Source: Clostridia bacterium
GTDB taxonomy: Bacteria; Bacillota; Clostridia; Christensenellales; Aristaeellaceae
Assembly (NCBI GenBank): GCA_017936375.1
Contig: JAGBFR010000038.1
Span: 1-46,023 of the forward strand
Reading direction: 5' to 3'
DNA length: 46,023 nucleotides
Part shown: positions 4,405 through 8,834 of the stretch, piece after piece
Position numbering within the stretch: the first letter of the stretch is position 1
How the letters are laid out: each line of letters begins with the position of its first letter
Notes under the pieces: model-generated
The model's database searches: none
What the model was told of the DNA's origin: nothing
What the model saw: only the letters and a program-made list of their open reading frames with translations
Translations under genes and position numbers: made by a program

Positions 4405-6483
4405 ATGAAGGAATACATGGTGAAGGATATCCGCAACATCGCGGTATTGGGACACGGCTCTGAAGGCAAGACCACGCTCGTCGAGGCGATGCTGTACGCT
4501 GCCGGCGTGATCGACCGCCAGGGTCGTGTCGAAGATGGCAACACTGTCAGTGACTATGATCCGGAAGAGATCAAGCGCCATAATTCCATCAGCGCGTCCG
4601 TCGCGCCCATCGAGATCCACAACAAGAAGCTCAACATCATCGACGTGCCGGGTTACTTTGACTTCGCGGGCGAAATGGCCGGCCCGCTGGCCGCCGTCGA
4701 GGGCGCTGTGATCGTCATGAGCGCCAGCACCGGTCTTTCCACCGGTTTTGAAAAGGCATGGGACGCAACCGGGAAGCAGCATGTCGCGCGCATGATCGTC
4801 GTCTCCCAGGTTGATCGTGAGAATATTAACTACCGCAAGGTTCTGGATGATCTGCGCGCCAAGTACGGCTCCTGCATCATCCCGACCGTCCTGCCGATCG
4901 GCGAGGGCACCAGCTTCAAGGGCGTTGTTGACGTGCTCTCCCGCAAGGCGTTCACCGGCGCGGGCAAGGACCGCAAGGAGATCGCGATCCCGGCCGAGAT
5001 GGAGGCGCTCGTTCAGGAGGCCATCGAGGCCTGCTATGAGGCCGCCGCGTCCACCAGCGAGGAGCTGATGGAGAAGTTCTTTGACGAGGGTGAGCTCTCC
5101 GATACCGATATGATGATCGGCCTGTCCGCCGGCATCTACGACGGCAGCATCGTGCCGGTCGTCCCGGTTTCCTCTATCAACGGCATCGGCATCCGTCCGC
5201 TCATGTACGAGCTGGCGACCTACATGCCCTCCCCGATGGAGCACACCTATCACGGCATCAACCCGAAGACCAAGACCATGCACATCCGCCATGCGGACAT
5301 GAGCGAGAGCTTCACCGCGCAGGTCTTCAAGACCATCGCCGACCCGTTCGTCGGCAAGCTGTCTCTGGTCAGGGTCATCTCCGGCGTGCTTACCCCGGCG
5401 ACCGCGCTCTACAACCCCAACAAGGATAAGCCCGAGAAGGCGGCCGGCCTCTTCATGCTCCGCGGCAAGAAGCAGATCCCGGTGTCCATGCTCTGCGCCG
5501 GCGACATCGGCGCCCTGTCCAAGCTGCAGTACACCGCCACCGGCGACAGCCTGAGCGAAATCGGCAAGGTCGTCCAGTATGAGGATATCGCCTTCCCGGC
5601 GCCGCAGATGTCTCTGGCCGTCTACGCCAAGAAGGCCGGCGAGGAAGATAAGGTCTTCTCCGGTCTGGCCCGCCTCTGCGAGGAAATGCCGGACGTCATC
5701 GTCGCCAAGGATCCGATGACCACCGAGACCCTCATCAGCGGCCAGGGCGAGCTCCAGCTGGAAATCGTCCGCCAGAAGCTGCAGGCCAAGTTCGGCGCGA
5801 ACGCTGACTTCCGCGAGCCGAAGATCGCCTATCGCGAGTCCATCCGCAAGACCATCAGCGTCCAGGGCCGCCATAAGAAGCAGTCCGGCGGCCATGGCCA
5901 GTTCGGCGATATCTGGGTCGAGTTCTCCCCGGCCGAGGAAGGCGTGGAGTTCGAGTTCGTCGACGCCGTTGTCGGCGGCGCTGTCCCGCGCAACTTCATC
6001 CCCTCCGTCGAGAAGGGCCTGCGCGACAACCTGGTCAAGGGCGTCCTCGCCGGCTTCCCGATGACCGGCCTGCGCGCGAAGCTGTACGATGGCTCCTACC
6101 ATCCGGTTGACTCCTCCGAAATGGCGTTCAAGACCGCTGCCCGCATCGCGTATAAGCAGTGTATCAACGCCTCCCCGGTTCTCCTTGAGCCGATCATGTC
6201 CGTTGAGATCACCGTGCCGGACGAGTACATGGGCGACATCATGGGCGACATGAACAAGCGCCGCGGCCGCATCATGGGCATGGACCCGATCGATGGCAAG
6301 CAGGTCATCAAGGCCGAAGTGCCGCAGGGCGAAATGTTCAAGTACGCGACCGACCTGCGCTCCATGACGCAGGCGAAGGGCTCCTTCAAGATGGCGTTCG
6401 AGCGCTATGAGGAAGTCCCGCAGATGATCGCCGCCAAGATCATCGAGGCCCACAAGGCCGATCTCGAGGACGACGAAGAGTAA
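4405..6483 (+). CDS. EF-G-like translation GTPase (EF-G2/FusA paralogue)
   Basis: 692-aa five-domain translational GTPase of the elongation factor G family. The G domain has G1 GHGSEGKTT (16-24) and G3 DVPGY (80-84). Domain II, then a domain IV segment (GGHGQFGDIWVEF) and the C-terminal domain V follow. Two positions differ from canonical EF-G. The catalytic histidine of DTPGH is Tyr84, as in the EF-G2 group. The guanine-specificity motif NKxD reads SQVD (134-137). It is therefore probably not the main translocase; that fusA normally lies in the str operon, outside this window. It could be a ribosome-associated or recycling factor with altered GTP use. AAGGAGG lies 8 nt before the ATG. It is monocistronic, with its own promoter and terminator. 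Confidence 0.88.
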   Translation: MKEYMVKDIRNIAVLGHGSEGKTTLVEAMLYAAGVIDRQGRVEDGNTVSDYDPEEIKRHNSISASVAPIEIHNKKLNIIDVPGYFDFAGEMAGPLAAVEGAVIVMSASTGLSTGFEKAWDATGKQHVARMIVVSQVDRENINYRKVLDDLRAKYGSCIIPTVLPIGEGTSFKGVVDVLSRKAFTGAGKDRKEIAIPAEMEALVQEAIEACYEAAASTSEELMEKFFDEGELSDTDMMIGLSAGIYDGSIVPVVPVSSINGIGIRPLMYELATYMPSPMEHTYHGINPKTKTMHIRHADMSESFTAQVFKTIADPFVGKLSLVRVISGVLTPATALYNPNKDKPEKAAGLFMLRGKKQIPVSMLCAGDIGALSKLQYTATGDSLSEIGKVVQYEDIAFPAPQMSLAVYAKKAGEEDKVFSGLARLCEEMPDVIVAKDPMTTETLISGQGELQLEIVRQKLQAKFGANADFREPKIAYRESIRKTISVQGRHKKQSGGHGQFGDIWVEFSPAEEGVEFEFVDAVVGGAVPRNFIPSVEKGLRDNLVKGVLAGFPMTGLRAKLYDGSYHPVDSSEMAFKTAARIAYKQCINASPVLLEPIMSVEITVPDEYMGDIMGDMNKRRGRIMGMDPIDGKQVIKAEVPQGEMFKYATDLRSMTQAKGSFKMAFERYEEVPQMIAAKIIEAHKADLEDDEE

Positions 6484-6547: not shown

Positions 6548-6611
6548 TGCATAAATGCGCCGCAGGACAGCTTTGCATGGCACAGATGGATAGGGCGTTT
6601 GTCCGCTGCGG

Positions 6612-6762
6612 CGGGGAACCTCACCCGCCCCTCCGGGGCACCCTCCCCTCCCAGGGGAGGGCTTTGGGGTTTGTGAAATCCGCAGCCCGAAGCCTTCCCC
6701 TGAGAGGGAAAGGTGGATCGCCGCAGGCGAGACGGATGAGGTTCCCGCCCGCAGGCGGTTTA
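6612..6762. repeat. family-1 interspersed repeat, two inverted copies
   Basis: The right half (6690-6762) reads CCTTCCCC...GGTGG...GACGGATGAGGTTCCCGCCCGCAGGCGG, the same design as the copies at 19847, 24051 and 31594. The left half (6612-6663) begins GGGGAACCTCACCCG and is a diverged inverted copy. No gene is visible between 6484 and the rny promoter at 6856; this repeat fills most of it. Confidence 0.7.
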
Positions 6763-6855
6763 CCTGAATGCCTGAGGGACAGGCCGATATCGTTCCGGGG
6801 GATGTTTTATTGCCATCAAAATTCCACAAATTGTTCACCCATTTGTCATCTAGGC

Positions 6856-6884
6856 TTGACAGCGCCGGATTATGCCGTTACAAT
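6856..6884 (+). promoter_or_regulatory. promoter of the rny leader
   Basis: TTGACA at 6856-6861, a 17-bp spacer and TACAAT at 6879-6884. The predicted start near 6891 leaves a leader of about 275 nt before the rny start codon. Confidence 0.82.
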
Positions 6885-6890
6885 AGAATA

Positions 6891-7169
6891 AGTCAAAGTG
6901 AAAGCGTGTGCGGGTTGATCCTGCCGGCGAAGCTTAGCATCGGGGTTTTGCCCCCGTTTGATACAGCAATTCAATATGAGGACACCCTTTTTGTATGCAG
7001 GGGCGCTGTGCGTTTGTGCCCTTGCGCAGGTATGAGGGGCGTTGTCCCTTTGTTTTGCATAGCTTCATATCGTCTGGCGTCAACCTTCACACTTTTTGCC
7101 CGGCTGGGACGCAAGTCCACTAAATCGGAATGTGAGAAATCAGCAAGAAGGAGTGTGAAAAAGGTTGAC
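6891..7169 (+). promoter_or_regulatory. structured 5' leader of rny; candidate switch or embedded 6S-like RNA
   Basis: There is no good reading frame here, but there is extensive complementarity. Segment 7079-7092 (GTCAACCTTCACAC) can pair with 6906-6919 (GTGTG, GGTTGA, 2x2 internal loop). It can instead pair with 7153-7169 (GTGTG, AAGGTTGAC, an AAA bulge), which contains the rny TTG start. If the upstream pairing forms, further arms nest inside it: 6974-6979/7065-7070, 6994-6999/7056-7061, 7000-7002/7046-7048 and 7006-7012/7023-7029. A local hairpin CGGGG/CCCCG lies at 6931-6946. The result is a long rod of about 200 nt ending in TTTTT (7093-7097). What is seen is the complementarity; a regulatory switch, or a separate 6S-type RNA sharing this promoter, is inference. 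Confidence 0.5.
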
Positions 7170-8757
7170 GTTATTGTCTTTTGTCATCGCGCTGCTTGCG
7201 CTGGCCGCCGGCGCCGCCGGAGGCTATATCTACCGCAAGAACGTTCAGGAAAAGAAGATCGGCCGTACCGAGGAGTACGCCCGCAATCTGCTTGACGACG
7301 CACAGCGCCGCGCTGAGGAGAAGAAGAAGGAGAGCATTCTGGAGGCGAAGGAAGAGGTTATCCGCCTGAAGAATGAGCTCGATCGCGAGATCCGCGACCG
7401 CCGCGCCGAGGTTCAGCGCAGTGAGCGCCGCGTCGCCCAGAGGGAAGAGACCCTCGATAAGAAGGCCGATAACCTTGACGCCCGCGAGACCACCCTCGAG
7501 CGCAAGCAGAATGAGCTCGACCGCCTCACGCAGGAGGCGCAGGAGTTCTCTGCCCGCCAGAAGGCGGCAGCCGAGGCTGCGGAAGCCGCTGCCAAGGATC
7601 TGGATGAAAAGCGCCGCGTGGAGCTTGAGCGCGTCGCCAAGATGACGCAGGACGAGGCACGCGACATGATCGTCCAGCGCATCCAGAAGGAAGCCTACCA
7701 CGACGCCGGCGTGCTCGTGCGCGACATCGAGCGCACCGCCCGCGACGAGGCTGAGAAGAAGGCGCGCAACATCGTCGCCATGGCGATCCAGCGCTGCGCC
7801 TCCGACCACGTGGCCGAGACGACGGTCTCCGTGGTCTCCCTGCCCAATGAGGACATGAAGGGCAGGATCATCGGCCGTGAGGGCCGCAACATCCGCACGC
7901 TGGAGACGGCGACGGGCGTTGATCTGATCATCGACGACACCCCGGAGGCGGTCATCGTCTCCGCGTTCGATCCGGTGCGCCGCGAGATTGCCCGCATCGC
8001 GCTGGAGAAGCTCATCGCCGACGGCCGTATCCATCCGGCCCGCATCGAGGAAATGGTCGAGAAGGCCCGCCGCGAGGTGGACAACCAGATCCGCGAGACC
8101 GGCGAGCAGGCGATCTTCGAGACGAATATGCACGGCATCCACCACGAGCTGGTCAAGCTCCTGGGCCGCATGCGCTACCGCACCAGCTATGGCCAGAACG
8201 TGCTCAAGCATTCCATCGAGGTCTCTCACCTCGCCGGCCTGATGGCCGCGGAGCTCGGCGCGGATGTCACCCTCGCCAAGCGCGCCGGCCTGCTGCATGA
8301 CATCGGCAAGGCTGTCGACCATGAGCTTGAGGGCACGCATGTGGAGCTGGGCGTGGAGATGGCCAAGCGCTATCACGAGTCCCCGGAGGTCATCCACTGC
8401 ATCGCTGCGCACCACAACGACATCGAGCCGCAGACCGTCGAGGCCGTCATCGTGCAGGCCGCCGACGCGATCTCCGCTGCCCGCCCGGGCGCGCGCCGCG
8501 AGTCCATCGAGAATTACATCCGCCGCCTCGAGAAGCTTGAGGAGATCGCCTCCAGCTTCCAGGGCGTGGAGAAGTCCTTCGCCATCCAGTCCGGCCGCGA
8601 GGTCCGCATCATGGTCAAGCCGGAGGACATCACCGACGAGGGCACGCTGGTCCTCGCCCGCGAGATTGCCAAGCGCATCGAGAATGAGCTGGAGTATCCG
8701 GGCCAGATCAAGGTCAACGTCATCCGCGAGACCCGCTGCACCGAGTTCGCGAAGTAA
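7165..8757 (+). CDS. rny: ribonuclease Y
   Basis: 530-aa membrane-anchored endoribonuclease that starts bulk mRNA decay in Firmicutes. In order: a transmembrane anchor (2-22), a long charged coiled coil (about 30-200), a KH RNA-binding domain with [11 protein letters not shown] (233-243), and an HD phosphodiesterase domain with the metal-binding His378-Asp379 in LLHDIGK. The length and order match the family exactly. The start is TTG at 7165, with AAGGAG at 7148-7153. No other in-frame start leaves the anchor intact. The start codon lies in the 3' arm of the leader helix described at 6891-7169, so translation may be controlled by RNA folding. It is monocistronic, followed by a terminator. Confidence 0.96.
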
Positions 8758-8770
8758 GCTGCATACAAGC

Positions 8771-8797
8771 GCCCCCTGCTCCGGCAGGGGGTGTTTT
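8771..8797 (+). terminator. terminator after rny
   Basis: An 8-bp GC stem, CCCCCTGC/GCAGGGGG, has a 4-nt loop and is followed by TGTTTTCTTT. Confidence 0.88.
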
Positions 8798-8804
8798 CTT
8801 TCCC

Positions 8805-8834
8805 TTGACGCTCCCCGGCGCAGCGGGCTATAAT
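8805..8834 (+). promoter_or_regulatory. promoter of recQ
   Basis: TTGACG at 8805-8810, an 18-bp spacer and TATAAT at 8829-8834, 32 bp before the recQ start. Confidence 0.8.

Follow-up and report, generated by a model that had tools for sequence, protein, structure and literature searches.

Two mutually exclusive helices in the rny leader of uncultured gut Clostridia: a probable switch in the control of RNase Y

Ribonuclease Y (RNase Y) begins much of the mRNA decay in many Firmicutes, and in the open PMC literature searched the setting of its level has been explained only for Bacillus subtilis, in an account (PMC10303841; abstract, section 3.4 and Discussion) in which the enzyme cleaves the 5′ UTR of its own mRNA, the first 50 nt being the most strongly cut, and lowers its own synthesis. 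The rny locus considered here raises the question of whether the leader of an RNase Y mRNA can itself be a switch and, if so, what would throw it. Comparison of the window (the whole stretch of 46,023 nucleotides of DNA that was analysed) with its relatives leads to the view that these uncultured gut bacteria very probably have a genuine gene switch in the leader of their RNase Y mRNA, and that it probably acts in cis, as a two-state device controlling rny translation.

In the window, rny is flanked by an elongation-factor-G-like gene (4405-6483) upstream and recQ downstream. A terminator-like hairpin 3′ of rny and a good promoter match (8805-8834) ahead of recQ, both found within 8767-8834, suggest that rny is transcribed as a single-gene unit. 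A GC-rich intergenic repeat directly upstream of the rny promoter (6601-6790) has 79 matches in the window's own genome, itself counted and both strands included, and is a dispersed REP- or MITE-like element. The position of the strong match to a sigma-A-type promoter (Table 1) puts the predicted start of the rny transcript at about 6891, which gives a leader of about 274 nt and places the start ahead of arm A; the original prediction depended on a start upstream of 6919.

Three arms, here named A, B and C, were confirmed on the sequence at the coordinates originally proposed for them. As had been claimed, B can pair with either A or C, and the latter covers the TTG start. The first pairing, P1, consists of 6906-6910/7088-7092 and 6912-6919/7079-7086, thus 13 pairs with one C.U mismatch (6911/7087), and it closes a long rod of some 210 nt (estimated beforehand at about 200 nt). 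The second, P2, consists of 7079-7085/7163-7169 and 7086-7092/7153-7159, making 14 pairs with an AAA bulge (7160-7162), and takes in the start codon together with the last base of the Shine-Dalgarno sequence. How readily such a layout arises by chance was gauged by searching for any 18-nt stretch that pairs well with both the first 45 nt and the last 36 nt of the leader; the weaker of the two helices reached -22.7 kcal/mol, compared with -13.7 +/- 1.9 kcal/mol in dinucleotide shuffles, and none of 400 shuffles was as good. The fold of the rod itself (6891-7100) has a z score of -4.36, equalled in none of 200 shuffles.

Table 1. Features of the rny locus, with positions in the window
Feature	Positions	Strand	Basis
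Predicted sigma-A-type promoter TTGACA-17-TACAAT of the rny transcript	6856..6884	+	Match at the same place in 25/25 genus leaders, window included
Rod closed by P1; putative ON state	6891..7103	+	Folding
Arm A, predicted transcript 5′ end; 6906-6919 is the 5′ strand of P1 (anti-sequestor)	6891..6919	+	Conserved; pairs counted
Small hairpin CGGGG/CCCCG, conserved as CGG-loop-CCG	6941..6956	+	Sole helix in the 5′-domain consensus
GTTTGATACA, strongly conserved stretch; candidate sensor or cleavage element	6956..6965	+	5′-domain alignment
Terminator-like hairpin and TTTGTTTTG within the rod	7034..7057	+	Window scan; similar in 10/25 genus leaders, window included
Arm B, switching strand, partner A (P1) or C (P2)	7079..7092	+	Covariation pair counts
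Shine-Dalgarno AAGGAG	7148..7153	+	Sequence; predicted unpaired 0.94 with B barred from downstream pairing, 0.07 with B free
Arm C, 3′ strand of P2, holding the TTG start 7165-7167; putative OFF state	7153..7169	+	Folding, pair counts
rny, ribonuclease Y; start TTG 7165-7167	7165..8757	+	NCBIfam TIGR03319 equivalog match, 761.4 bits, E 4e-229

A DNA search recovered the leader from 16 of 60 genomes, a figure that includes the window's own; all 16 belong to its genus. A protein search found rny in 27 of the 29 genus genomes. There was no rny match in G012 and G014, and the matches in G017 and G020 lack the 5′ end of the gene; with these last two dropped, the comparative set comprises 25 genus leaders, namely the window and 24 relatives. 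The named source records are metagenome-assembled genomes of Clostridia, many of them from animal guts, and include Candidatus Ventricola intestinavium (L037). Every one of the 25 leaders has a TTGACA...TA(A/C)NAT promoter match and all three arms, and 22 have AGTCA 6 or 7 nt after the promoter match. As the middle of the rod is too variable for a whole-leader alignment of all 25, the arms and subsets were analysed in its place. Some peculiarities of single loci were seen as well: in L007, L037 and L068 there is a duplication of AGTCAGTC at the predicted transcript start, the first copy lying 2 nt after the promoter match; one genome (G010:C87:4120-5697) has one in-frame TAG within rny, which may be an assembly error; and THF riboswitches occur near rny in two relatives (L044, 4126-4224; L057, 439-537, minus strand).

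The covariation of the two helices was assessed in several ways. Arm B was located by its CACAC core, with equivalents set by hand in L030, L034 and L043, so that pairing of the core is partly selected; covariation in the flanks is not affected in this manner. Native A:B pairings had a mean of -24.6 kcal/mol, compared with -20.8 kcal/mol for species-swapped arms, and native B:C pairings -27.8 compared with -23.4 kcal/mol; none of 20000 permutations reached the native mean for either, and in just five species (A:B) and four (B:C) did no other of the 25 partners pair better than the native one. Because relatedness inflates such a swap test, a tree-based pair test was also run, on an rny tree of 24 species (L108 omitted) with a win or loss called at more than 0.5 kcal/mol. 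Over its 12 non-overlapping nearest pairs, some of which are not sisters and which are thus not fully independent, native B:C gave eight wins, three ties and one loss against the chimera (L037-L038, +6.5 kcal/mol), and native A:B six wins, four ties and two losses (L033-L007 and L035-L039).

Pair counts point the same way for both helices. For P2, counted in 18 of the 25 species (the divergent L043, L044, L045, L046, L064, L088 and L108 omitted), both sides had changed at 9 of 19 pairs, compared with 3.4 in shuffles, and 93.8% of cells were paired, compared with 90.0%, values that none of 500 shuffles reached; when the strands were slid, pairing fell to 27-43%. For P1, counted in 16 species (L032 and L042, with long inserts, being omitted in addition), both sides had changed at 4 of 17 pairs against 1.4 in shuffles (reached by 2 of 500), and 87.5% of cells were paired against 85.5% (reached by 1 of 500). 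Slid controls of P1 were 29-56% paired with up to three both-side-changed pairs, so that a slide of -2 gives three against the four observed, and columns 21-282 are unpaired in 10 of the 16 species. By these counts the covariation of P1 is backed less strongly than that of P2. What we regard as the most telling case of covariation comes from L030, in which the B base equivalent to 7091 has changed from A to T and both of its alternative partners, 6907 in A and 7154 in C, from T to A. The start region has the sequence GATG in L034, L036 and L038, where the start codon would seem to be ATG, and P2 still covers it.

As far as sequence comparison can tell, then, two exclusive helices that share arm B are under selection, which upholds the on/off layout of the original prediction by the sort of check that had been proposed with it. 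The leader thus has the features of a bistable RNA in general, namely two exclusive helices with a common strand, both maintained in evolution (P2 strongly, P1 more weakly), and, going by sequence and folding predictions, one of them would block the ribosome site and start codon.

Predicted folding gives the two helices an order. When equilibrium structures were computed at each transcript length of the window leader, P1 was complete with the transcript end at 7093, P1 and P2 competed at 7160-7165, and P2 had displaced P1 at 7170. In full leaders P2 is the more stable predicted end state in 23 of the 25 species, by a median of 7.9 kcal/mol over all 25, the exceptions being L007 and L037, in which B is predicted to favour the upstream pairing. 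The mean predicted openness of the Shine-Dalgarno sequence is 0.68 when B is barred from downstream pairing, compared with 0.32 when it is free, and that of the start region 0.41 compared with 0.22, the former value being higher in 22 of 25 species for each. These predictions indicate that P1 exposes the rny start and P2 hides it, and it is from the equilibrium folds and openness values that P1 is taken as the early, open state and P2 as the late, closed one. During transcription, arm A at the 5′ end would capture arm B to form the rod closed by P1, an order that is itself computed, and the Shine-Dalgarno sequence and start codon would then emerge free, allowing RNase Y to be made. Were P1 lost or absent, B would pair with C, the start region would be buried in P2 and rny would be off.

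Within the rod, the GATACA element or its equivalent has an unpaired probability of 0.85 in the window and a mean of 0.53 over the 25 species, compared with 0.35 for whole rods. For RNase Y of Staphylococcus aureus the favoured cleavage position is after a G within A/U-rich sequence (PMC4608709), and the window's GTTTGATACA would, by analogy, fit that preference, with a G that varies among relatives. A fixed RNase Y site after the G of GAUACA was considered and dropped, since G precedes AUACA in just 16 of 25 genus leaders (and in 42 of 55 of the cores from other genera described below). Upstream-ORF attenuation was likewise set aside, the small ORFs of the window and of L028 being unlike each other when the printed leaders were compared by eye. 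L043 has a long hairpin followed by TTTTTT (2286-2450) inside its leader, upstream of arm B, and this leader may combine termination with masking of the start codon.

The leader appears to be dedicated to its gene. A covariance model trained on the initial 95 nt of all 25 leaders gave 25 matches, all to its own training leaders and each directly before rny, the four genus genomes that lack a match being those noted above as having no rny or no 5′ end of it. With strict filters, under which weak matches could be lost, the model found no second copy in the 29 genus genomes, and with the same filters none in 31 genomes outside the genus. By Rfam 15, the leader matched no family when the window and 20 related loci were scanned at the gathering score, nor did the leader region up to E 10, and 20 rny upstreams of other genera gave only two sub-threshold, chance-like matches up to E 2; no match thus assigns the leader to a described riboswitch class. 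Searches of the open PMC literature brought up no paper seen to describe such an rny leader. The main texts of PMC6429828 and PMC8040213 make no mention of rny or RNase Y, and the supplements of the latter, a paper that reports thousands of candidate RNAs, could list it. By kind the leader belongs with other bistable leaders, and among regulatory RNAs it appears to be undescribed.

What would throw the switch is a separate matter. Autogenous control by RNase Y is judged the most likely trigger, a tentative choice inferred from two observations: the lack of a second copy in the genus genomes, which points to the gene product more than to a general metabolite sensor as the controlling agent, without proving it, and the cutting by B. 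subtilis RNase Y of its own leader (PMC10303841, in the parts cited above). With RNase Y in excess, the enzyme, or decay begun by it, would remove or open the 5′ part of the leader and so tip it into P2. The anti-sequestor coincides with the mRNA's predicted 5′ end, so any cleavage or trimming close to that end would flip the leader to OFF, a behaviour that would suit feedback by a decay enzyme. Another protein, a small RNA or temperature, even taken jointly, would make an improbable trigger.

The known systems closest to this one share some of its features. The B. subtilis case resembles it in that rny is controlled at its own 5′ UTR (here putatively), with the leader directly upstream of rny in all 25 cases here, and in that the ribosome site can lie in strong structure; it differs in that control runs through mRNA decay, RNase Y cutting the leader and the early ORF before RNase J1 acts, and in that no exclusive helix pair is described in the abstract, section 3.4 or Discussion of PMC10303841. 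Escherichia coli RNase E is likewise a decay enzyme that feeds back on its own leader, the rne 5′ UTR; as told in those parts of PMC10303841, however, a leader stem-loop is bound there without cleavage and cutting takes place elsewhere. A further likeness is to the adenine riboswitches discussed next.

In the usual riboswitch layout the 5′ strand of P1 lies at the 5′ end of the transcript and its 3′ strand is the switching strand, and in ON-type riboswitches such as adenine add and pbuE that 3′ strand is common to the sensor domain and the OFF hairpin. The rny leader has this very layout, the 3′ strand of P1 being common to an OFF hairpin over the ribosome site (in the window's genus) or to a terminator (in the other genera considered below), and on layout alone a ligand that stabilises P1 would fit as well as RNase Y. 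That a compound or ion binds the rod, stabilises P1 and keeps B off C is somewhat less likely than control by the enzyme. The exclusive, covarying helices speak for such a riboswitch, as do the conserved stretches within the rod and the co-transcriptional decision implied by the analogous arms of other genera, which adjoin a terminator-like hairpin. However, a metabolite riboswitch often serves several genes whereas this leader serves one and has no second copy in the genus genomes, the central part of the rod differs greatly among species in both length and sequence, with no compact conserved aptamer core found, and the leader has neither an Rfam match nor a known aptamer or ligand. A different objection to a switch of any sort is that P2, being far more stable, could make the leader simply inhibitory. 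P2 would then merely lower rny translation, P1 would aid co-transcriptional folding or protect the 5′ end against decay, and no signal would be regulated. The preference for P2 in the full leader agrees with such static control, as does the strong structure in which the B. subtilis rny ribosome site can also sit (PMC10303841, same parts), but both helices covary on the common arm B, and a static leader has no need for P1 to track the bases of B; this account is therefore improbable.

The remaining explanations fare worse. The hairpin at 7034-7050 with TTTGTTTTG may be a weak terminator, so that alternative folds of the rod would act there and not on the start codon, and TTTGTTTTGTG-like sequence does recur in the alignment. 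In our scan, however, the terminator-like match was confined to the 10 leaders of Table 1 and lacking from the other 15, the T run is interrupted by G, and the hairpin lies upstream of both B and C, which leaves P2 over the start codon unexplained; attenuation in the rod is accordingly given little credence. Still less is given to the notion that the rod is a separate small RNA, for instance 6S RNA, lying before rny by accident. A rod of about 200 nt with its own promoter, and with TTTTT directly after P1, is indeed reminiscent of 6S RNA (RF00013), but in 25 of the 29 genus genomes a 6S RNA above the Rfam cut-off lies elsewhere, in no case at the rny leader, and 6S RNA was thus rejected (the window's genome, an assembly 81% complete, and G005, G018 and G025 gave no 6S match); the leader has no Rfam match, and B has a covarying pairing with the rny start as well. 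Lastly, many helices are possible in a GC-rich leader, but chance complementarity is hardly credible in the face of the shuffles and of the covariation among related species. A switch that acts on the rny start remains the preferred reading, with RNase Y as its favoured trigger.

The rny leaders of other genera in the family were examined for a comparable arrangement. From the 187 of 200 family genomes with rny, 100 loci were picked by hand for a spread across genera. Of these, 99 lie upstream of rny in 41 other genera, and the hundredth, L108, comes from a member of the window's genus (G011). Judged by promoter pattern, the 99 comprise 71 leaders of at least 180 nt, 24 shorter ones and four without a promoter. 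A core of GCTGTT..ATA.A (or GCCGTT) near the predicted start is present in 55 of the 71 long leaders, from 16 genera, and in none of the 24 short ones, and a GGC-like arm, a weak motif on its own, lies within the first 16 nt of 57 of the 71. A further 33 upstreams come from loci presumed to lie outside the family, with an rny protein of no more than 64% identity; 29 have a promoter by the same pattern, and none of these has the core. Among 42 leaders with a promoter and a stricter core pattern, a hairpin-and-T-run pattern lies 73-135 nt before rny in 35 and is lacking in seven. A strict form of the pattern was found in 14 of the 200 family genomes, directly before rny in 13; the fourteenth case (G231) sits close to the end of a contig, and no rny is seen beyond it.

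In these genera pairing is possible between the leader's 5′ end and the 5′ half of the terminator-like hairpin, by matches that are lineage-specific (for example CGGCTGAA/TTCAGCCG in L189, CGGCTTTG/CAAAGCCG in L205 and CGGCTGTAG/CTACAGCCG in L170). When native and permuted arm pairs were compared in 37 leaders, 6 of 50000 permutations reached the native mean, and 144 of 50000 did so at the level of genera (14 genera); with the arms cut more widely the effect was weaker, 444 of 20000 permutations reaching the native mean for 35 leaders. A 20-row alignment of the 5′ domains is poor around GATA and was excluded from the counts. The arrangement is of similar logic to that of the window's genus, and thus analogous on the same gene, with a putative 5′-end anti-terminator and a terminator-like hairpin in the place of B:C, but the sequence differs. 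No sign of common ancestry with the GGC...GCTGTT..ATA.A leaders came from the 5′-domain model of the genus, which recovers none of the 99 (a single match had E 3.1), and the likeness is for that reason limited to the logic and a short motif. The core-bearing leaders among L109-L207, which include the three just named, possibly form a separate, undescribed attenuator class.

It can be asked whether all of these leaders belong to one class of switch dedicated to RNase Y throughout the family. The first 30 or so nucleotides would then be a removable anti-sequestor in the window's genus and an anti-terminator in up to 16 other genera, and RNase Y, or the decay that it begins, would sense its own activity through loss of the 5′ end and so turn the gene off. 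Such a family-wide class is doubtful at present; if it were true, A and C would resemble each other as rivals for B, in one logic with two outputs. For the genus itself, both exclusive folds are visible in the covariation, and the question of how the level of RNase Y is set thus becomes testable with defined mutations. With RNase Y as the trigger, the leader would amount to a clean feedback device, made of RNA, on a decay enzyme; with a ligand as the trigger, it would be an orphan riboswitch in charge of RNA turnover.
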